Positions 20,615-32,715 of a stretch of DNA of 41,259 bases are shown in pieces. The stretch is from Ectothiorhodospiraceae bacterium (lineage in GTDB: Bacteria > Bacteroidota > Ignavibacteria > SZUA-365 > GCA-2699105). Position numbers and translations under genes: made by a program. Position 1 is the first letter of the stretch, and every line of letters starts with the position of its first letter. The stretch spans positions 1-41,259 of the forward strand of contig PABJ01000020.1 in assembly GCA_002699105.1 (NCBI GenBank), given 5' to 3'. The notes beneath the pieces were generated by a model that saw only the letters and a program-made list of their open reading frames with translations, did no database searches and was not told the DNA's origin.

Positions 20615-20646
20615 AACGCCGCTCCTTACGGGGAGCGGCGTTTTTA
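20615..20646. terminator. Strong bidirectional-capable intrinsic terminator downstream of pilin-like gene 1
   Basis: AACGCCGCTCC-(TTACGG)-GGAGCGGCGTT 11-bp stem; T5 on plus side, TTTCTTTTT on minus side. Confidence 0.85.
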
Positions 20647-20680
20647 CGGTTAGGCGAAAGCGCTTAGCAAGCGCGATCTA

Positions 20681-21076
20681 TTAATAACCGGAATAGGTTG
20701 GCGAGCTGACGGCATCCGGTGAGACTGTGATCTGAACCGTTGCACTGGCTACAGTCGAGGATGAACCTACAAGCGTTGCGGTCGAAGCCGTTGCTGCGCT
20801 AACTGCATAGGAACCGTTGGCGTTGATACCGCTGGAAGCAGTCGAGAAACCGAGATCCTGAAGATCGAGGCCGGAGAAGCTGTTGCCGCCGCCACCGAGC
20901 ATAGTCGGCTTGCGATAGTAACCCTGTGCCTGGGAAGCCATGCGGAGAATATCCTGCGTGACGGCATCCTTGTTTGCCTGATCGGCGTTGCTACCGAAGA
21001 TGCTGATACCGACGACCACTGCGATTCCGACGATGATGACGCCGAGGACGATAAGAAGCAATTGTTGTGAACCCAT
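20681..21076 (-). CDS. Non-canonical pilin-like protein 1 (131 aa)
   Basis: N-terminal hydrophobic helix MGSQQLLLIVLGVIIVGIAVVVG followed by amphipathic region and S/T/A-rich C-terminus; SD-like AAGGAG (plus CTCCTT 21083-21088); adjacent to pilC/pilB; paralog at 30413..30829. Confidence 0.75.
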   Translation of the reverse strand: MGSQQLLLIVLGVIIVGIAVVVGISIFGSNADQANKDAVTQDILRMASQAQGYYRKPTMLGGGGNSFSGLDLQDLGFSTASSGINANGSYAVSAATASTATLVGSSSTVASATVQITVSPDAVSSPTYSGY

Positions 21077-21153
21077 TACGGTCTCCTTAGAAGATTATTG
21101 AAGTGAGTGTGAGTAAATGCGATTTTGCTTTTTGTTCGATTTTGAATCTGTCA

Positions 21154-21189
21154 CCAATTTAAAACCCGAATCTTACAGCCGTCTGAATC
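21154..21189 (-). promoter_or_regulatory. Putative activator-dependent promoter P1 of pilin-like gene 1
   Basis: Minus strand: GATTCAGACGGCTGTAAGATT-CGGGTTT-TAAATTGG; direct repeat TCAGACG-N4-TAAGATT, 7-nt gap, -7-like TAAATTGG. Same layout at 21255-21290 and 30881-30916. Confidence 0.6.
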
Positions 21190-21254
21190 ATTGATTAAAC
21201 GTGTTAAAGATTTCGTTTTTCATATTTGGTTTGTGATTCATCATGATTACGCAC

Positions 21255-21290
21255 CCAATATAAACGCCGAACCTTACGGCAATCTGAATC
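21255..21290 (-). promoter_or_regulatory. Putative activator-dependent promoter P2 upstream of pilin-like gene 1
   Basis: Minus strand: GATTCAGATTGCCGTAAGGTT-CGGCGTT-TATATTGG; direct repeat TCAGATT-N4-TAAGGTT, 7-nt gap, TATATTGG. Confidence 0.6.
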
Positions 21291-21380
21291 GATAATGAAA
21301 ACGCAGAAAGGTTGGGTTTATCTTCAGGTTACATTGATGCGAACCTGCGAACGCCCAATAAATACAGGGGTGAAGAACGA

Positions 21381-22802
21381 TCAGACGAGCTGGCGGAAGA
21401 GCAAAAAACTTGCAAAGAGGTAGGAAAAACTGAACACCGGATACAGAATCGCGGCTACTGCGCGGTACTTGGGGATGGGCTTCCAGCGCTTGTACAGAAA
21501 CAATAATGCGAGCGGGAGGAGAGGCAGGAAGTAGCGGCCTTGTACGCCGGCAATAAATGAAGACCCAGGCGGCACCCATGTTATATACACGGCAAATGTC
21601 ACTAACAGTACTGCGGAACCGAGGAACACGAATAGAATCGCACGCTGCCAGCGTTCGATGCGAACCTCATCGGACGTATCGAACAGAGCCGTGGCGAGAA
21701 TGATTGCATAATAGAGAGCGATGAAGGGGCCTGATAGGAGGATGTTCTGTTCATTCCATTGTATGCCGACAAGTCCTTGAAGGTAGAACATCCCTTGATT
21801 CCAGAGATCCTGAGCGAGAATGCCGAGTACTTGAATAGGGTGACCAAGCGAATACGCGACTGCTTCACTGGGATTTGCGCCCGTATCCATAAACGGATTG
21901 TAGATGTCTTTTGCGATGGCATTCCACACCCCTGCCGGGACAACCGCAGCAAGAAGAACCCCGCATGCAAGTGCATACTTCATCCACGGACGACTGAACT
22001 TCCTGCCAGGAATAAGCACTATCAGGGCAGGCAATATGACATAGATTGGCTTGCAAAAGCCGAGCAATATGCCGGTAGCGGCAAGAAGCACCACATACCT
22101 GCTGTTAATCTGTTCGCTCTCGCTGAGGAATGCCTGCCGTGCAACAAGCGCTATGAATAGGAGGATAAGAGCATTCGTGAGCGCGTCCGACGACATGGAT
22201 GCCATTTGGAACATGGACGTTGGTGAGAGCGCTATCAGCATAAACACCCATCGATGCGCGGGCACCAGGTGAATGGCGAACGCAATGAGGACGATGCTGA
22301 AAAGAAGATTGAACACACGCCCCAGGTACATCACCCCGAGCGGCGATAGATTCAGATACCGACCAATGGTAATCCCGAACGTCTGGGGCAGGTACGGCAC
22401 AGGACTATACATAGCAGTATTCGCGAAAGAGACGTACGATGTGTCTTTCTCTTGGAGCGGCATAGTTAGCGCGCCCTTTATCAATTCTACCGGCACATGG
22501 CCGTCATCGTACTGCTGCACCCCTACCCGGAATACATACACACTGGCTGCGAGGGAGCGCGGCAGCACTCCTCCGGTTTTATCATCCCGCTTTTCAGCGA
22601 CGATGTCACCCTGTGAGATCTGATACGCGCGGAAGTAGTGGTTCGGTTCATCCAGCATATAGAAGGGGGGCGTGCCGAACGTGAACAGCAGTCCTGTCGG
22701 CAGTCCGATCAGGATAAAGGCTTTCACGGCGTTCTCGGAGAATACCAACTGGATGGCGCGAAGCAATCCGGCAAACCTTCTACTACGTCGTTGCGCGTTC
22801 AT
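21381..22802 (-). CDS. Polytopic membrane protein, DUF2142-like (GT-C-like)
   Basis: 473 aa; 'GTPPFYMLDEPNHYFRAYQISQGDIVAEKRDDKTGGVLPRSL' followed by multiple TM helices, 'GVQGRYFLPLLPLALL'. Confidence 0.75.
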   Translation of the reverse strand: MNAQRRSRRFAGLLRAIQLVFSENAVKAFILIGLPTGLLFTFGTPPFYMLDEPNHYFRAYQISQGDIVAEKRDDKTGGVLPRSLAASVYVFRVGVQQYDDGHVPVELIKGALTMPLQEKDTSYVSFANTAMYSPVPYLPQTFGITIGRYLNLSPLGVMYLGRVFNLLFSIVLIAFAIHLVPAHRWVFMLIALSPTSMFQMASMSSDALTNALILLFIALVARQAFLSESEQINSRYVVLLAATGILLGFCKPIYVILPALIVLIPGRKFSRPWMKYALACGVLLAAVVPAGVWNAIAKDIYNPFMDTGANPSEAVAYSLGHPIQVLGILAQDLWNQGMFYLQGLVGIQWNEQNILLSGPFIALYYAIILATALFDTSDEVRIERWQRAILFVFLGSAVLLVTFAVYITWVPPGSSFIAGVQGRYFLPLLPLALLFLYKRWKPIPKYRAVAAILYPVFSFSYLFASFLLFRQLV

Positions 22803-23074
22803 AGATTAGTGGACAGGGCAGATTATTCGTTCTAGCTGCAATAGATAGCAATGCTGTGACTCTGACTGGTAAGATCAAACCTACCTGATCTTGAGGTGAG
22901 ATGACAACAGAATGTTTCCGAGAATTGCAGAATTTACCCTTTTGTAAGGTTGCGAGAGAAGTACTGCGATGCTATGTAACTATTACAAGCGATTTAGATT
23001 TCCGGCTTTTACACTACAGACAAATTTCGCTTCTTGGATGTGAAAAGTGTTCCAGAAAGCTTTACCACATACGC

Positions 23075-24664
23075 ATGAGCAAGCAGGCAATCATTATCGG
23101 TGCCGGACCGGCAGGTCTGACAGCGGCATACGAACTCGTCACGAAGACCGACATTAAGCCGGTCATTTTCGAAATGTCAGGAGATATCGGCGGGATATCG
23201 AAGACGGTGTATTACGAAGGAAACCGGATAGATATCGGCGGTCACCGCTTCTTCTCCAAATCGGACCGCGTGATGAACTGGTGGCAGCAAATCATGCCGA
23301 TCCAGGGCGCGCCCTCCAAGGACGAGCGTTTACTGAACCTGAAGTACCAAGGGAAGTCACGGCAGTTTGAACTCCCCGAGGACGGCCCCGATCCCGAAGA
23401 CACCGATAACGTCATGCTTGTGCGCAAGCGCCTCTCGCGCATCCTCTATGGTAGGAGTTTCTACGATTACCCCGTCTCACTCAATATGAACACGCTGGGT
23501 AATCTCGGTTTGCCGAGAGTGATGAAAATAGGTTTCAGCTACGTGAAGACGAGACTGTTTCCAATTCGGGATGAGAGGACTCTGGAAGACTTTTTCATCA
23601 ACCGTTTCGGCCGTGAGTTATATAGTACCTTCTTTAAAGACTATACAGAGAAGGTGTGGGGAGTGCCGTGCCGTGAAATTAAGGCCGACTGGGGCGCTCA
23701 GCGTATTAAAGGTTTGTCGATCTCGAAGACCCTTCTTCATGCCGCGAAGAGCATTTTCAAGAAGAAAAGCGATATCAGCCAGAAAGAAACCGAGACCAGT
23801 CTCATAGAACAGTTTCTGTACCCGAAGCACGGACCCGGGCAGATGTGGGAAACAGTCGCAAAGCATATCACGGATCGCGGTGGTGAGCTGTATATGCATC
23901 ATGAGGTAACGAACCTCAACAACAATGGGAAGAACGTTACTTCCATCACTGTGAAGGACCACAAATCAGGTGATGAACGGGAGATCGAAGGCGATTATGT
24001 GTTTTCCACGATGCCGGTAAAGAACCTCATCAATGGAATGCAGAACGGCGTTCCTGCTGACGTGAAATCTGTTGCAAACGGACTCATCTACCGCGACTTC
24101 ATCACAGTGGGTCTGCTCCTGGATTCGTTGAAGATTCGCAATCAAACCGAGCATCGCACAGTCAATAACGTCGTCCCCGATACATGGATATACATTCAGG
24201 AACCGGACGTCAAAGCTGGAAGACTGCAGGTATTCAATAACTGGAGTCCGTACATGGTCGACGACCTGAACAAGGTATGGATCGGTGTGGAGTACTTCTG
24301 CAACGAGGGCGACGAGCTCTGGGAAATGGATGAAGAGGCGTTCAAGAAGTTCGCTGCCGAAGAGCTCGAAAAAATCAACATTATCGATAAGGACGCAGTG
24401 CTGAAGAGCATCGTCATCAAAATGCCGAAGACCTACCCTGCATACTTCGGCACATACGACCGGTTCGGTGAGATCCGGGAGTATGTAGATAATTACGAGA
24501 ACTTGTTTCTCATCGGCCGTAACGGGATGCACCGCTACAACAATCAGGACCATTCAATGCTAACAGCGATGGTCGCGGTCGAAAATATCATGAATGGTGT
24601 GACTGCAAAGGAAAACATCTGGAATGTGAACACCGAAACGGAGTATCACGAAGAGAAGAAATAG
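23075..24664 (+). CDS. NAD(P)/FAD-dependent oxidoreductase, UDP-galactopyranose mutase-like/amine oxidase family
   Basis: Rossmann motif '[17 protein letters not shown]', '[32 protein letters not shown]', C-terminal '[24 protein letters not shown]'. Start reassigned from 22901 to MSKQAII at 23075. Confidence 0.82.
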
Positions 24665-24676
24665 GGGAGATATCAG

Positions 24677-26479
24677 CTATTGCGATAGCTGCATGATCTT
24701 CGTTCGTACAGTATCGACGGAACAACCGAACTCCCCGGCTTTTGAAAGAAGGCGTTTCGCGCCTTCGATCTTCCCGCCATCGACTAACATCAATCCTAAC
24801 TCCCGGTAAATCTCACAGACGGTTGGATCGGTTTCGAGCGCGCGAATGAAGTTTCTTTCTGCAAGCGCGTAGCGATGTTCTTCCCTGTATAGCTTTGCCA
24901 GGAAGTAATGCGGCCTCACCGACTCCGGAGCAAGCTTCCTTGCCCGGACAAGGTACGACTCAGCCTGCCTATAATTACCCAAATCAGTGTGGGCGACACC
25001 TGCAAACAACATCGCTTCCGGATATTCAGGTTTACGCGCCAGTGCTTTCGTGAAATACGTCAGCGCCGAGTCGGGGAGTTCCTCATGCAAATAGCACATA
25101 CCGATGTTGTGATAGGCGGTTGCGTATGCTGGTGTGACGGCTATAGTACGCTGAAAACACTCCCTCGCGTTGCCGTATTCACGGGTCAGCATGTAATGCG
25201 TACCGAGATTGTTGTTTGCAAGCGGATGGTATGGATCGTAGCGCAATGTATTTGTATACAGCGTCTCGTTACTCTCCCAAATCTGCACCTGTTGATAGCC
25301 CAGGGAACCATAAAGAAGAACTGCGATGATACCAACGGCCAGAGTAGCATACCGGGCGATGCGGTATTTACGAACCAATTCACTGATTCCCCAAATGAAC
25401 ATGATCGATAACCCGATCATCGGGATATAGGTGTACCTATCGGCCATCGACTGCGCTCCCACCTGTACCAAGCCGATAACAGGCAGCAAGGCCACCACAA
25501 AGATCATCCAGCCACTGAGGAACCAGGGATGCGATTTTCTGATGAGGAAACCGGCGATAATTGCACCCAGCAGGACCAATCCCGCGGCAATAAAAAGCAT
25601 AACAGAAGGGTTAAGCTCATGGAGATAGTACATTCCGAGTTCGGTGGGGACGACGATCTTCCCTATGTAGTTCAAATAGGAGACTGCCGCATGTTGGATA
25701 CGCTGCCAGAGAGAGAAATACTCGACAGATGTGACCGTACCGCCTTTCTGCTGCGCTATAATGGCGATGGCTGCTCCGAGAGCACTTAGAAGGAAGAACG
25801 GGATTTTGTCCAGAAGAAGGCGCTTCGCGTTATCCAGCAACGAACGAGATGAGGAGTATGTGTTCAGCGGCCAAATATCAAGGGCAATGAGCAATATCGG
25901 CTGCACGACTGCGATCGGTTTTGCTAGCAGTGCAAACAATGATGCAAGCAACGCAAGTATATAATATGCAGTATCACCGTTCTTGATTCTATAAGCTCGG
26001 TAAGCCAGGAACGAGAGAAGCATGAAAAAGAGGCTGAGGACGTCCTTCCGCTCTGATATCCATGCGACGCTCTCCACGTGCATCGGATGTATGGCGAAGA
26101 TCGCAGCGACGAAGAAGCTCTCCCAGCGGCGCTTCGTCGCCAGCACGAAGAATAGATAGATCAGCAGCGTGTTCGCCCAATGGAATACAACGCTTGTTAT
26201 ATGATGTCCACCCGGCGAAAGTCCATGAAGCTCTACATCGATGATATGCGACAGCCAGGCTAGGGGATGCCAGTTAAACACTTCCAGGCTCGTGAAAGCC
26301 CACACAAGTGTTTCTGCATTCAGCCCTTGCAGTGTCATGGGGTTTTCGTAGACGTAAAGATTATCGTCGAAACTTACGAAATAGAAATGCTGGACATTCC
26401 AATAGATCCCAATAACCATTGCGGTTAGGATGATCCCGGTCAAAATGTGGATCAGGCGATCTCTCGATAGGAGAGTCAT
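24677..26479 (-). CDS. TMTC-like/PMT-type membrane protein with C-terminal TPR repeats (copy B)
   Basis: 600 aa; 'FDDNLYVYENPMTLQGL', 'NWHPLAWLSHIIDVELHGLSPGGHHITSVVFHWANTLLIY', 'AIHPMHVESVAWISERKDVLSLFFMLLS', then TPRs. Confidence 0.85.
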   Translation of the reverse strand: MTLLSRDRLIHILTGIILTAMVIGIYWNVQHFYFVSFDDNLYVYENPMTLQGLNAETLVWAFTSLEVFNWHPLAWLSHIIDVELHGLSPGGHHITSVVFHWANTLLIYLFFVLATKRRWESFFVAAIFAIHPMHVESVAWISERKDVLSLFFMLLSFLAYRAYRIKNGDTAYYILALLASLFALLAKPIAVVQPILLIALDIWPLNTYSSSRSLLDNAKRLLLDKIPFFLLSALGAAIAIIAQQKGGTVTSVEYFSLWQRIQHAAVSYLNYIGKIVVPTELGMYYLHELNPSVMLFIAAGLVLLGAIIAGFLIRKSHPWFLSGWMIFVVALLPVIGLVQVGAQSMADRYTYIPMIGLSIMFIWGISELVRKYRIARYATLAVGIIAVLLYGSLGYQQVQIWESNETLYTNTLRYDPYHPLANNNLGTHYMLTREYGNARECFQRTIAVTPAYATAYHNIGMCYLHEELPDSALTYFTKALARKPEYPEAMLFAGVAHTDLGNYRQAESYLVRARKLAPESVRPHYFLAKLYREEHRYALAERNFIRALETDPTVCEIYRELGLMLVDGGKIEGAKRLLSKAGEFGCSVDTVRTKIMQLSQ

Positions 26480-28536
26480 TCTGCAGCCTGTTTCGCTAAA
26501 GTAGAATCATCGACCGCAACAGGAGCACTCATCCCCAATGCAGGGCTGCGTTGTATGTACCCGTACTTCTCCGGCTCGACGAGCAAAGAACGGATACGGT
26601 TGTGCAGGCCTTCATTGCCCGGCGCCTGGCTCAGCGCCGTCGAGAAGCGCACCAGGGCGGAATCGTATTTCCCTTCCAGTACATTGATGTCTCCGAGGTA
26701 TTTGTGGGCAACGCTGTTGACGTGCCGGAGTTCGGTAGATCGCTGGAACATCGTTTTCGCCTGATCGTACTTGCCCATATCCAGAAAGACCAGCCCGAAA
26801 TTGTTGTATATGTCGTATAAATCGGGATCGACTTTTAGTGCTGCCGTCAGGAATTCAATAGCAAGATCGGCGCGGCCAGTTTTGAGGTAGTAGGACCCGA
26901 GGTTATTCAAGTGTAGCGCCGATGTAGGTTCAAGTTCAACCGCTCGTAAGAGATGTTTCTCAGCAAGCTCTGTACTATCTAATGCCATGTAGGTCTTCGC
27001 CAGATCACCGTGTGTATTCGACTGGGTCGAATCAACAGATAGTGAAGCTTTGTAGTACTGCCTTGCCAGATCGTACTCGCCTAATTCAAGATGAATCGAC
27101 CCGAGGTTGTGCATAACTTTCTTGGAACCCGGTTCCACTCTTAGAGCTGCCTCCGCGTAAGGCAGCGCCTTTTTGTATTCACGCGCGAGGATATAGTGCA
27201 CGGCCAAGTTGGCATTCGCTGTATGATTCGAAGCTGTGACATCTATTGCGTGGAGGTACAGCGTCTCATTGTTCTCCCATGTTTGAATCTGTTTCCATGA
27301 CGTGCCCACGAAAAACACCACCGCGAAGACAATGATTATAAACGAGGCATAGCGCACTGCTGCGTGTTTTCTGGCATATGTGCTGGCGAGAAGGACGATA
27401 AGAAAGAACAGCCCGATATGAGGGATATATACGTACCTGTCGGCCATGGCCTGAGAGCCGACCTGCATCAATCCGATTACAGGTACTAGCGTGCCGACGA
27501 AAAAGAACCATCCAACGGGGATATATGGGTGCGTTCGCCAATACCGAAGAGCCAATACTGCGATAGCAACCAAGCCGATCCCGATTCCCGCGATGAGCAA
27601 GGCATCGAATGATTGCGGATATGGGTAGAATATCGCAAGATCATGCGGGTAGAATGTTAGCCAAATGTATTTCCCATACGAGAGGATAGCGTTCTGAATG
27701 CGGTCGATGAGTAGTGCGCTGGCGCGATGCGTGTTGATAGCTCCATACCCGCTCTGTGCAATAACGGTAACGAATACGGATATTACCGTGAGTACAAAGA
27801 AGGGAATCTTTTCCGTGATCAGGTGTAGATTATCTCTACGAAAATAATGGGTGAAGAAACGCAGGATGCCACTTTTTTCGCCGGTATTCGTGCGCTGTAA
27901 TGGGTAGTAATCGAGGAGCAGGAGCACGAATGGCAAGGTCACGAGCATCGGCTTTGTCATCAGGCCCGCGGCATAAAGCAGCACTGCACCAACGTAATAC
28001 CAGGGTTTGTTCTCGCGCTTGGTATATAGTGCATACACCCAAATCGTCAAGAGGAAGAAAAGAGTACTGAGAACATCCTTTCGCTCAGAGATCCATGCGA
28101 CGGACTCAACGTGCGTTGGGTGAATCGCAAATAGTATCGCGATAATGTATGCTTCAATCTTTCGCCCGGTCAGCTGAAGAATCAGGAAGAACAGAAATAC
28201 AGCGTTCAGAGCATGAAGAAGAACGTTCGTTGTGTGAAATCCCCCAGCGACAAACCCACCGTACAGCTCATAGTCTATTAGGTACGAGAGCCAGGTGAGA
28301 GGATGCCAGTTTGCCATATGCAGTGTGGTAAATGCCCAGCCAACGGAGGAGAAGCTGAGCCCCTGCTCGATCTGTGGTGTTTGCAGCAAATACTCGACAT
28401 CGTCGAAATTTACGAAATCGTAGAAGCGGACGTTTTGGTAGAGTAACAGCGTCCCGAGGAACAGGAGGCCTGCTGCGAGCCAAACGAATTTGTTATATAC
28501 TTTACCGTCACCTGCCATGAAGAACTCCCGGTACAT
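26476..28536 (-). CDS. TMTC-like/PMT-type membrane protein with C-terminal TPR repeats (copy A)
   Basis: 686 aa; 'NFDDVEYLLQTPQI', 'NWHPLTWLSYLIDYELYGGFVAGGFHTTNVLLHALNAVFLF', 'AIHPTHVESVAWISERKDVLSTLFFLLT', then ~6 TPRs; ATGA overlap with copy B. Confidence 0.85.
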   Translation of the reverse strand: MYREFFMAGDGKVYNKFVWLAAGLLFLGTLLLYQNVRFYDFVNFDDVEYLLQTPQIEQGLSFSSVGWAFTTLHMANWHPLTWLSYLIDYELYGGFVAGGFHTTNVLLHALNAVFLFFLILQLTGRKIEAYIIAILFAIHPTHVESVAWISERKDVLSTLFFLLTIWVYALYTKRENKPWYYVGAVLLYAAGLMTKPMLVTLPFVLLLLDYYPLQRTNTGEKSGILRFFTHYFRRDNLHLITEKIPFFVLTVISVFVTVIAQSGYGAINTHRASALLIDRIQNAILSYGKYIWLTFYPHDLAIFYPYPQSFDALLIAGIGIGLVAIAVLALRYWRTHPYIPVGWFFFVGTLVPVIGLMQVGSQAMADRYVYIPHIGLFFLIVLLASTYARKHAAVRYASFIIIVFAVVFFVGTSWKQIQTWENNETLYLHAIDVTASNHTANANLAVHYILAREYKKALPYAEAALRVEPGSKKVMHNLGSIHLELGEYDLARQYYKASLSVDSTQSNTHGDLAKTYMALDSTELAEKHLLRAVELEPTSALHLNNLGSYYLKTGRADLAIEFLTAALKVDPDLYDIYNNFGLVFLDMGKYDQAKTMFQRSTELRHVNSVAHKYLGDINVLEGKYDSALVRFSTALSQAPGNEGLHNRIRSLLVEPEKYGYIQRSPALGMSAPVAVDDSTLAKQAAE

Positions 28537-29508
28537 TTAGGCAGGCTTTGCCCAATACTCCAATGTGCCGCCTCGCCCCATCATTGCTGTAATGATGCTG
28601 TATGGGAGGCCGGCTAAAGTTAGAACTGCCCCTAGAGCAAAAACTGAGGCTCGTGTGATGCCGCCAGTCTCTTTGTAGCGCATTCTTGCTTCAGGGGCGC
28701 GGATAAGATCGTAGAACATGTTGTAGGGCAGCCCCATAAGATTCATGACACTCTGCACGAAACCGAATACGTCTTGCTCAATAGAAAGAGTTCTCTCTTT
28801 GATGATGGAGAAGTTGCTCTCATCGAGTGAGCGCTTCAGCGTCGCGGGGGAGAAATGTCCAAGATGCCGCGGTACGTCAATCGCGAACCACTGCTCTTTG
28901 CTCCAGGTCGACATTGCTCCGCCGAAGTTCGGGACTGCTAGAAGTAGCAATCCATTCTGCTTGGAAATTCTGCGCATTTCCCGCAAGGTTTCTTGATGTT
29001 CCGGCATGTGCTCCAACACATGATAGCATATAATAACATCGAAGTGTTCGTCAGGGAACTGACAATCTGCGAGGTTGGGAGTATTGTATACCGTCACACC
29101 GAAGTTATTCACCGTTGTTTCTGCCATCGATGCGGAATACTCAGTCCCGAACGCTTCCCATCCTCTGCGAGCTAATTCCGCGAGGAGGGTACCGCGACCG
29201 CTTCCTACCTCCAGAACTCGCCCTGCCATATCGAAATGCGATGTAACAGCATCGGCAATTCTGGTGCGGAAATACTGGACTACTTTTTCGAGCGATGTAT
29301 TAAAGCGTTTGCCTTCAGAGCCGTAATATGATTCGGGGTAGTAGCTGCCTAAGGATTCACCATTTGGGCGGGGAGATGTGACGACATGTCCGCATCCAAC
29401 GCATTTTTGCAATGAAAAACGCTCGCCGCTGTAGTGATCTTCCGCATCGTATACCTTCGTGAAGTCACTGTCTCCGCAAATACAGCATGTATCGACAGAT
29501 ACCATCAT
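28537..29508 (-). CDS. Class I SAM-dependent methyltransferase with N-terminal zinc-binding region
   Basis: 'CCICGDSDFTKVYD...CVGCGHVVTSPRP' Cys motif; 'RVLEVGSGRGTLLAELARRGWEAFGTE' SAM motif I. Confidence 0.87.
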   Translation of the reverse strand: MMVSVDTCCICGDSDFTKVYDAEDHYSGERFSLQKCVGCGHVVTSPRPNGESLGSYYPESYYGSEGKRFNTSLEKVVQYFRTRIADAVTSHFDMAGRVLEVGSGRGTLLAELARRGWEAFGTEYSASMAETTVNNFGVTVYNTPNLADCQFPDEHFDVIICYHVLEHMPEHQETLREMRRISKQNGLLLLAVPNFGGAMSTWSKEQWFAIDVPRHLGHFSPATLKRSLDESNFSIIKERTLSIEQDVFGFVQSVMNLMGLPYNMFYDLIRAPEARMRYKETGGITRASVFALGAVLTLAGLPYSIITAMMGRGGTLEYWAKPA

Positions 29509-30302
29509 TGATGCGATAGGTTGGTCGCTTTTAGATCCTGGGCTATGCTCTCCTCGGACTCACGAAATATCTGTGCCTTCCCTAGTCCGATCTTCGAGAA
29601 AAAGAAGCTCATTGCTGTTCCCAGACAGCCAAATCCGTATTTCACACTCCGGTAGAAATTGATAGAGGATGCTTCTGTGAAATACTTGGTTGGACAGCTC
29701 ACTTCTGCAATTGTATAATTCTTCCAGAGTATTTGCGCGAGCATTTGATTATCGAACACGAAATCGTTTGAGTCGCGTTCGAAATCGATATCCTGGAGTA
29801 ATTTCCGGGAGAACGCGCGGTAGCCTGTATGATACTCAGAGAGCTTTGCTCCCATGAGGATATTCTCCGTGAGTGTAAGGAAGCGGTTGGCGATATATCG
29901 CCACCAGGGCATACCGCCTTTGAGAGCATAGCCGCCCAGTACGCGCGATGCGAGAACGCAGTCGTACAGGCCATTGCCGATCAGCGCTGCCATTGAAGGG
30001 ATAAGTTTCGGTGTGTATTGATAGTCCGGATGGACCATAATAACGATATCACCGCCATGCTCGACTGCTAATCTGTAGCATGACTTCTGATTTCCCCCAT
30101 AGCCGAGGTTTTTATCATGCACATAGACGAGAGTGTTTGGAAGCTGCGATGCAACCTGCTTCGTTTCGTCCTTGCTGCAGTCGTCAACGACAATGACGAG
30201 ATCCACGATCTCTTGCTGCATGACTTCTTCATATGTTCGGGTTAACGTTTGGGCGGCATTGTATGCCGGCATCACGACGATGACTTTTTTGTTCTTATAC
30301 AT
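29505..30302 (-). CDS. Glycosyltransferase family 2, polyprenyl-phosphate hexose synthase (DPM synthase)-like
   Basis: 'VIVVMPAYNAAQTLTRTYEEV...DLVIVVDDCSKDETKQVA...NLGYGGNQKSCYRLAVEHGGDIVIMVHPDYQYTPKLIP...YHTGYRAFSRKLL'. Confidence 0.87.
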   Translation of the reverse strand: MYKNKKVIVVMPAYNAAQTLTRTYEEVMQQEIVDLVIVVDDCSKDETKQVASQLPNTLVYVHDKNLGYGGNQKSCYRLAVEHGGDIVIMVHPDYQYTPKLIPSMAALIGNGLYDCVLASRVLGGYALKGGMPWWRYIANRFLTLTENILMGAKLSEYHTGYRAFSRKLLQDIDFERDSNDFVFDNQMLAQILWKNYTIAEVSCPTKYFTEASSINFYRSVKYGFGCLGTAMSFFFSKIGLGKAQIFRESEESIAQDLKATNLSHQ

Positions 30303-30362
30303 GGCACAACACAACTTGGAGTGTTATGGGAAATGATTTCATTCTGCTCACATCAAAACATA

Positions 30363-30412: not shown

Positions 30413-30829
30413 TTACCAACCAGCGTATACAGGGTCTTCCATCTTCGCCGGGCGCACAACAATCGTACAGGTGAGTTCAGTACCCCCGCCGTCCCGCTCA
30501 AACTTTGAGTAGCCCACGATGGTGCATACATCACCGTTTCCAGTGACCTCATAGATTCCGTTATCGTTCTCTCCCTTGCCACTAAGGTTCGCGTACATGC
30601 CGACATCTTGGATTGTTATCCCATCAAACGACTGCCCACCTCCGCCAAGCATGGGGTCTTTTTGGTAATACCCTTGTGCCGCGGACGCAATTTTAATGCA
30701 GTCGTGCGTGACGGCATCCTTATTCGCGAGCTCGAGTCCGTTAACGAAAGCAGGAAATGCACCGATGACGATGGCAATTCCGACGATTATTACACCGAGC
30801 ACGATAAGTAAAAGTTGTTGTTGACCCAT
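30413..30829 (-). CDS. Non-canonical pilin-like protein 2 (138 aa, three Cys)
   Basis: MGQQQLLLIVLGVIIVGIAIVIG N-terminus near-identical to 20681..21076; shared 'ANKDAVTxD', 'AQGYYxK', 'MLGGGGxSFxG', 'IQD/LQD', terminal Y(S/A)G(Y/W). Confidence 0.75.
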   Translation of the reverse strand: MGQQQLLLIVLGVIIVGIAIVIGAFPAFVNGLELANKDAVTHDCIKIASAAQGYYQKDPMLGGGGQSFDGITIQDVGMYANLSGKGENDNGIYEVTGNGDVCTIVGYSKFERDGGGTELTCTIVVRPAKMEDPVYAGW

Positions 30830-30880
30830 CGTGTACCTCTATATCATTGATCGCAGCACGCTTGTACCGCTACTGTTGCC

Positions 30881-30916
30881 CAAATATACTCTCATATCCT
30901 TACGGGAATCTTAACC
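30881..30916 (-). promoter_or_regulatory. Putative activator-dependent promoter of pilin-like gene 2
   Basis: Minus strand: GGTTAAGATTCCCGTAAGGAT-ATGAGAG-TATATTTG; direct repeat TAAGATT-N4-TAAGGAT (11-bp phase), 7-nt gap, perfect Bacteroidota-type -7 TAnnTTTG. Confidence 0.65.
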
Positions 30917-30970
30917 GGACATTACACCTCTGAAAGAAATGTCTAGCTCGATGCAATATGTGCAATACCC

Positions 30971-32041
30971 CTATGCAGATTCGCGTACAACTGTTTCAGC
31001 CAGTGGGAGTTTAATGATGAATTCGCTTCCTTTACCTTCCTCACTAAACAGGGTTATCGCCCCTCCATGGGTTTCGATGATCCAGCGGACGATATACAGT
31101 CCCAGCCCGGTCCCTCCGAGCGACCGACTGTGCTCTTTGTCGACTCTGTAGAATCGCTCGAAGACTTTCGCTTGTTCTGCTTTTGGAATACCAATACCTG
31201 TGTCCCGTATGCTGATAATCGCATCATCTTCTTCGGTGAACAACGAGACTATGACACTGCCATTTTCAACGTTGTACTTCACTGCATTATCGACAAGATT
31301 CAACAGCACCCGCCGAAGCCTGAGTGCATCGCCGCGAATGTGTGCATCTTCGATGCGTTCAATTGTAAAGGAAACATTCGACTGCGTCGTGAACATCTCT
31401 GCTTCATCTGCAAACTCTTCAATGAAAGCCCTTAGGTCGATCTCATGATCTTCCATATTCACCTGGCCGATCTGCGATTTTGCGACAAGTAGCAGATCGT
31501 CGATGATCCGGGAAAGCCGAATGACTTCTTCCAACAGCGATCCCAGAATTTCCTGGTACTGCTCGGTGGATTTCGGATGACGAAGAGCAAGCTCGATCTC
31601 ACCGCGTATGATTGTCAAGGGTGTCCGGAGTTCGTGGGAAGCGCTAACAGAGAAGTGTTGAATCTGCTCATACGCTTCGTGCATTTTATCGACCGAGCTG
31701 CGGATCGATGAGATCTTGTCCTGGAATTCCTCCTCCAGGATTGCTGTGGAGAGCGGCGGTGATTCTATTGCTTGTGGGGAGATTTTGTACTTCGAACGGT
31801 GAAGCTGCTCGGATATGAAGAAGCCCACGGTGTAAGAGAAGAATGCACCGACAGGTACGAAGATCAATCCGACGGCAATGAATGTTTGCCTGAAGTAATC
31901 CATCATGTCCTGCGTCATGATTTGCAAAGATGAAAAATGGTATGTAAACACCGCAATGATGAGGCCCGTCACCATGAGTACGACCGCAAAGATCGTGGTT
32001 CCGTAGATGAGGGAGAAGCGGAGTTTTAGCCCAATGATCAT
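30971..32041 (-). CDS. Sensor histidine kinase
   Basis: Two TM helices, H-box 'FSVSASHELRTPLTIIRGEIELAL', N-box 'LLNLVDNAVKYN', G-boxes 'DTGIGIPKAEQAKVFERFYRVDKEHSRSLGGTGLGLYIV'. Confidence 0.95.
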   Translation of the reverse strand: MIIGLKLRFSLIYGTTIFAVVLMVTGLIIAVFTYHFSSLQIMTQDMMDYFRQTFIAVGLIFVPVGAFFSYTVGFFISEQLHRSKYKISPQAIESPPLSTAILEEEFQDKISSIRSSVDKMHEAYEQIQHFSVSASHELRTPLTIIRGEIELALRHPKSTEQYQEILGSLLEEVIRLSRIIDDLLLVAKSQIGQVNMEDHEIDLRAFIEEFADEAEMFTTQSNVSFTIERIEDAHIRGDALRLRRVLLNLVDNAVKYNVENGSVIVSLFTEEDDAIISIRDTGIGIPKAEQAKVFERFYRVDKEHSRSLGGTGLGLYIVRWIIETHGGAITLFSEEGKGSEFIIKLPLAETVVRESA

Positions 32042-32715
32042 AGTTCGGGATCTCTGACAACATATCCAACGCCGCGAATTGTATGGATAAGCTTCGGATC
32101 GAACGGTTCATCCACTTTCTTGCGCAGCCGCGTCATATACACGTCCAAAACGTTCGTATCGCTATCGAATGTCACTTCCCAGATGTGTTCGATGATCGAA
32201 GATCGTGTCATGACGATGTTTTTATTGCGCAGCAGATATTCGAGGAGTTTGAACTCCTTCGCCGTAAGATCGATCATACTTTCGCCGCGTTTAACGCTGT
32301 GCTGCATTTGATCGAGTGTCAGATCGGCAGCGGTCAGAACATTAAATTGTTTATCTGAGTTTGCGCGCCGCACTAAAGATCGAATCCTGGCGATGCATTC
32401 GGCAAGCGCGAACGGTTTTGTCATGTAATCGTCTGCACCGAGATTCAATCCTTCGAGCTTGGTCTCCAGCTGACCTCGTGCTGTGAGGATCAGAACGGGC
32501 GTATTGCTTTCTTTCCGTATCTCCTTTAGCACCTCAATGCCATTTTTTTTCGGAAGCATGAGATCGAGAATGATCGCATCGTAATCTTCGGTTAAGGCCA
32601 GGAATGCGCCTTGCTCTCCGTCGTGTGCAGTGTCGACGGTAAACATCTCTTCCTCGAAGCCTTGTTTCAGGAAGGAGCAAACCTTTTGTTCATCTTCTAC
32701 GATCAGGAGTTTCAT
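32038..32715 (-). CDS. OmpR/PhoB-family response regulator
   Basis: Receiver 'MKLLIVEDEQKVCSFLKQGFEEEMFTVDTAHDG...DYDAIILDLMLPKKNGIEVLKEIR...GADDYMTKPFALAE' plus wHTH 'LTAKEFKLLEYLLRNKNIVMTRSSIIEHIWEVTFDSDTNVLDVYMTRLRKKVD...IHTIRGVGYVVR'. Confidence 0.96.
   Translation of the reverse strand: MKLLIVEDEQKVCSFLKQGFEEEMFTVDTAHDGEQGAFLALTEDYDAIILDLMLPKKNGIEVLKEIRKESNTPVLILTARGQLETKLEGLNLGADDYMTKPFALAECIARIRSLVRRANSDKQFNVLTAADLTLDQMQHSVKRGESMIDLTAKEFKLLEYLLRNKNIVMTRSSIIEHIWEVTFDSDTNVLDVYMTRLRKKVDEPFDPKLIHTIRGVGYVVRDPEL

Follow-up and report, generated by a model that had tools for sequence, protein, structure and literature searches.

A putative OmpR/PhoB-type operator array and its candidate regulator at pilin promoters of an uncultured Bacteroidota-type lineage

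Introduction

The best-known control of pilin genes is exerted by NtrC-type regulators acting together with sigma-54. The pho box consists of 11-bp direct repeats, often arranged as two tandem 22-bp boxes, that replace the -35 region, and it is from PhoB that the class II promoter geometry of OmpR/PhoB-type activators is known. For Bacteroidota, TAnnTTTG has been established as the sigma-A -7 box; its mapped position in Flavobacterium psychrophilum is -12 to -5 (PMC9723704). In the literature that we searched, which was covered in part, we found no described pilin regulation for the Bacteroidota-type lineage, and nothing on OmpR-type pilin control or on Ignavibacteria pilin promoters.

Here we analyze a 41,259-nt stretch of DNA (contig PABJ01000020.1, hereafter the window) from this Bacteroidota-type, Ignavibacteria-like lineage that harbors two pilin genes preceded by arrays of direct repeats. 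We assign a probability of roughly 0.8 to the reading that these arrays are class II OmpR/PhoB-type activator promoters, which would be bound by the response regulator encoded at 32038-32715 and thereby raise transcription of both pilins.

Methods

The home assembly comprises 3.22 Mb in 208 contigs and is 74% complete, and the genome-wide counts reported for it are pattern searches. Array anatomy was derived by aligning the sites of diverged pilin genes. A weight matrix was built from 21 sites originating from other genomes only, with the window sites and near-duplicates excluded. Relatives were searched with the array pattern TMA-N8-TMA-N8-TAAG-N10-TANNTTKS, and counts were compared to those of a reversed control.

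Results

The pilin genes and their surroundings

Pilin 1 (20681-21076, minus strand; 131 residues, N terminus MGSQQLLLIVLGVIIVG...) adjoins pilC/pilB-like genes and has relatives in 36 of 61 genomes, and pilin 2 (30413-30829, minus strand; 138 residues) is its paralog at 51% identity. No family was found for either protein in Pfam, NCBIfam or PHROGs. Both start with MG(S/Q)QQLLLIVLGVIIVG, the usual prepilin leader and Glu5 being absent. Just past pilin 1, at 20615-20650 on the minus strand, a T run comes after a GC-rich hairpin (CGCCGCTCC..GGAGCGGCG), resembling an intrinsic terminator between pilin 1 and pilC. The two pilins are separated by approximately 9 kb (21381-30314) with glycosyltransferase-, methyltransferase-, oxidoreductase-like and other genes, which may be an insert for the glycosylation of pilin or of the surface; in genomes G008 (737 bp apart) and G013 the two pilins adjoin.

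Layout of the three arrays

The preliminary description of this DNA had proposed three minus-strand sites of shared layout, each with two half-sites 11 bp apart and a 7-nt gap to a -7-like element. The letters, the half-site spacing and the gap stand, as does the separation of the two copies at pilin 1, which is exactly 101 bp. The ends were however placed 3 bp too far, and the corrected spans of that pattern, 33 bp each, are 21154-21186, 21255-21287 and 30881-30913. Similarly, the two half-sites claimed per site are present, but the sites hold four in total, with two more located upstream on the same 11-bp phase.

At full extent, the putative proximal promoter/operator of pilin 1 covers 21154-21208 (minus strand), with half-sites TTTAA (21208-21204), TTTAAT (21199-21194), TTCAG (21187-21183) and TGTAAG (21177-21172) and the -7 box TAAATTGG at 21161-21154, a layout that is matched in relatives. 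The putative distal promoter/operator (21255-21309, minus strand) is laid out as the proximal copy, with the -7 box TATATTGG at 21262-21255. For pilin 2, the putative promoter/operator is found at 30881-30935 (minus strand), with half-sites TTTCA (30935-30931), TGTAAT (30926-30921), TTAAG (30914-30910) and CGTAAG (30904-30899) and the -7 box TATATTTG at 30888-30881. Counted from the end of the -7 box, the pilin 1 start codon is 77 nt away for the proximal copy and 178 nt away for the distal one, and for pilin 2 this distance is 51 nt. The pilin-2 box TATATTTG is an exact TAnnTTTG, the sigma-A -7 box of Bacteroidota, and both pilin-1 boxes are one letter off, reading TTGG rather than TTTG, with TAnATTkG as the consensus.

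Throughout the window and its relatives the half-sites follow the succession TTwCA, TGTAAT, TTmAG and TGTAAG, with each start exactly 11 bp after the previous one. As the half-site types alternate, the array can be viewed as two 22-bp units (TTwCA-TGTAAT and TTmAG-TGTAAG). The start of the final TAAG lies 14 bp before the TA of the TAnnTTkG box at all matrix training sites and at all three window sites. Among the aligned sites, spacers and flanks are far more variable than the half-sites, as expected if the latter are bound by protein. Two hallmarks of OmpR/PhoB class II promoters are present: direct-repeat half-sites spaced by about one helical turn (10-11 bp), and a fixed distance from array to -7 box with overlap of the -35 region, the position of which is predicted from the box.

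Specificity in the home genome

The genome-wide scan that had been suggested as a check recovered the three sites only, and none in the reversed control; within the window, the same pattern with up to 3 mismatches gave 3 matches as compared to 0.11 expected from shuffles. Because this pattern had been fitted to the three sites, we also made an independent test using the matrix. Applied to the 41-kb window, it returned the proximal pilin-1 site (54.7 bits), the distal pilin-1 site (42.4 bits) and the pilin-2 site (37.3 bits) with nothing else above 6 bits, and the best score in ten shuffled windows was 2.5 bits. A random frequency of the motif, which had been put forward as an outcome that would speak against the proposal, is hence not observed, with three sites only and with shuffles and reversed control near nil.

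A resemblance arising by chance, or a functionless remnant of the duplication that generated the pilins, might still be argued from the fitted pattern and from the paralogy of the two genes. The shuffles, the independent matrix and the excess over reversed controls speak against it, as do the occurrence of the array before unrelated genes in relatives (see below) and the retention of half-sites while spacers and flanks vary; we therefore reject both the chance and the leftover-duplication variants, the likelihood of which we judge to be negligible.

Relaxing the search of the home genome to 3 mismatches added two poor matches as compared to one in the control, and so we do not claim further members there. 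No array was found before pilC in the window (best matrix score -10.7), and the large T9SS-tail protein that belongs to the putative regulon in relatives was not found in the home genome, which may reflect the incomplete assembly. In the home genome the array is present at pilin promoters only, and, at 74% completeness, the wider regulon thus rests on the relatives.

Conservation and targets in relatives

The order yielded 36 exact array matches, spread over 14 of 16 genomes, against 1 in the reversed control. At class level (26 genomes) there were 2 matches versus 3 in the control, and in the phylum outside the order (147 genomes) 11 matches were recovered, fewer than in the reversed control there. 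Pilin genes follow 19 of the 36 order matches and pilC follows 2, with the remainder preceding an orthologous protein of approximately 875 residues with a T9SS C-terminal tail (7), exported protease-like proteins (4), a CheW protein (1) and other or unknown genes (3); additional pilC sites in other genomes of family f2 score with the matrix. The initial notion of a pilin promoter element accordingly holds for the pilins, but in relatives the putative targets also include pilC, T9SS-tail, protease and CheW genes.

The secreted T9SS-tail protein was observed with the array at loci L118, L119, L122, L123, L127, L129 and L130, and exhibits a sub-threshold similarity to heparinase II/III. The cheW gene with the array is located in G012. 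In family f2, the genes directly upstream of the regulator pair encode a CheB-like protein and a receiver-kinase hybrid (locus L063, 2909-5299), and these neighbors and the G012 cheW array are a putative chemosensory link to the pilus regulon. In relatives the regulator has a second receiver/kinase gene next to it, for which we considered a PilS-PilR identity; this was rejected, as the gene is a receiver-kinase hybrid adjoining the CheB gene and not of NtrC type.

Tandem copies at pilin 1 recur in other genera and are spaced independently, at 101 bp in the window, 105 bp in G008 (three copies) and 131-132 bp in G005, G010 and G012 (two copies each). The G008 copies are near-identical beyond the core, the signature of a putative recent duplication, and the other genomes keep mainly the core.

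Outside the order but within the phylum, two of the few matches, in loci L152 and L153 of family f27, show the same grammar close to base 1140 on the minus strand. These boxes contain TTTAAG-type half-sites in 11-bp steps, with the distance to TATCTTTG as in the order. The gene that they precede is membrane cytochrome-like, and L153 additionally has a histidine kinase gene immediately upstream. It is possible that they represent a parallel OmpR-type box in another lineage.

The third pilins of some relatives differ. Those of G001 (L067), G003 (L064), G009 (L069) and G015 (L056) have no array and display TGGCACG-type -24 boxes instead, the G011 locus (L072) being less clear, and third pilins in family f3 carry a weaker array. 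Considering that these third pilins have sigma-54-like promoters and no array, the pilin paralogs of the order appear to be divided between OmpR-type and sigma-54-type control.

The candidate regulator pair

The protein already named as a candidate partner of the arrays is the response regulator at 32038-32715 (minus strand), which with its Response_reg and Trans_reg_C domains belongs to the OmpR/PhoB family. It is paired with a histidine kinase (30971-32041, minus strand; HisKA and HATPase_c) for which hydropathy indicates two hydrophobic segments joined by a short loop, features that would be compatible with sensing within the membrane. Exactly one close ortholog of the regulator (73-79% identity) is present in 15 of 16 order genomes; the exception is G002, where the copy beside the kinase and pilin is cut short by the end of the contig. 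The ortholog is mostly found beside a pilin, and the synteny regulator-kinase-pilin(s)-pilC-pilB is kept in families f2 and f3.

Across the order, the recognition helix reads TNVLDVYMTR(L/I)RKK without further variation. In the class-level homologs (best hits, which may or may not be orthologs) the helix differs, as exemplified by TNIIDVYVNHLRNK, and their genomes are without the motif. Such co-variation of helix and motif points to the adjacent regulator as the candidate binder, and together with the domains and the order-wide pilin synteny it supports the original assignment. Of the solved chains, it most resembles the response regulator in entry 1kgs. Within NCBIfam it comes closest to the heavy-metal subfamily TIGR01387, where the score of 267.2 bits falls short of the cut-off of 279.2, and with the PhoB equivalog model the regulator reaches 190.6 bits, below the cut-off of 296.2.

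With 45 first-look response-regulator candidates in the genome, the arrays could alternatively be bound by another OmpR/PhoB-family member. We find this improbable in light of the location of the regulator next to a pilin across the order, its single close ortholog per genome and the co-variation of its recognition helix.

Proposed mechanism

We favor a model in which the kinase at 30971-32041 would drive phosphorylation of the regulator at 32038-32715, and the phosphorylated regulator would then bind the arrays and increase transcription of both pilins. Each 22-bp unit would suit one regulator dimer on one helix face. Assuming that the box occupies positions -12 to -5, half-site starts are predicted near -59, -48, -37 and -26, and the placement of a half-site where the -33 element is otherwise found suggests class II activator geometry. 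Transcription had been proposed to start approximately 7 nt downstream of the box; if the pilin -7 box is of the standard Bacteroidota type, the start should rather be about 5 nt past the box end. Pilin 1 would then be served by two tandem promoters, with starts near 21149 and 21250, and pilin 2 by a start near 30876. The comparative evidence is congruent with the earlier suggestion of OmpR/PhoB-type operators over the -35 region, duplicated at pilin 1; in substance the original observation holds, and the case for it is stronger than first presented.

The last half-site, at around -26, would be inside the region contacted by RNA polymerase, a position that could also suit a repressor, and the regulator might consequently bind the arrays and mainly repress the pilin promoters. 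The array however replaces the -33 element and keeps the same distance from the -7 box in every genome, suggesting a need for activation, and repressor sites are usually placed less strictly, rendering repression highly improbable. It is from this geometry that we infer activation rather than repression; binding, start sites and signal are predictions of the activator model.

A more far-reaching scenario is that, in this order, the OmpR/PhoB-type pair has taken the place of PilSR/sigma-54 feedback in controlling the major pilins, with the kinase sensing pilin in the membrane and setting the tandem promoters, and with the third pilin remaining under sigma-54 in some members. It would entail a kinase almost without an extracytoplasmic part, and paralogous pilins switched by two unrelated activator types, and we regard it as doubtful.

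Discussion

Judged from sequence comparisons, the window arrays are a further instance of an established mechanism, and they come with a regulon that spans the order and a clear candidate for the regulator. For an uncultured lineage of Bacteroidota type, they provide a well-defined operator code across the order and a candidate for the regulator that controls type IV pili, and place pilins under a candidate OmpR/PhoB-type activator with sigma-A promoters, as opposed to the NtrC-type and sigma-54 control that is best known. In relatives, the arrays connect surface proteins with a T9SS tail, as well as one chemosensory gene, with pili, and the operator code may be exploited to predict regulon members in unculturable genomes.

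Among described systems, PilS-PilR of Pseudomonas and Myxococcus is similar in that a two-component pair adjoins pilin/pil genes and presumably controls pilin transcription. In contrast, the window regulator possesses Trans_reg_C and is without a sigma-54 activator domain, and the window promoters are of the sigma-A type, TAnnTTkG, rather than sigma-54 promoters; no -24/-12 promoter (TGGCAC-N5-TTGC) was found upstream of either window pilin. The heavy-metal regulators CusR, CopR and CzcR are represented by the NCBIfam model nearest to the window regulator, which nevertheless scores below the curated cut-off and has pilus neighbors rather than metal efflux genes. With Bacteroidota sigma-A promoters the window sites share the -7 box letters, TAnATTkG, whereas the -33 TTTG at the usual distance is missing and a half-site is found there instead. 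Finally, relative to PhoB and the pho box, the half-sites read TTmAG/TGTAAG as compared to the CTGTCAT type, the regulator does not qualify as a PhoB equivalog, and the targets are pilins and not phosphate genes; the architecture is nonetheless alike, with 11-bp direct repeats at a fixed distance to the -10/-7 box and a winged-helix regulator of the OmpR/PhoB family.
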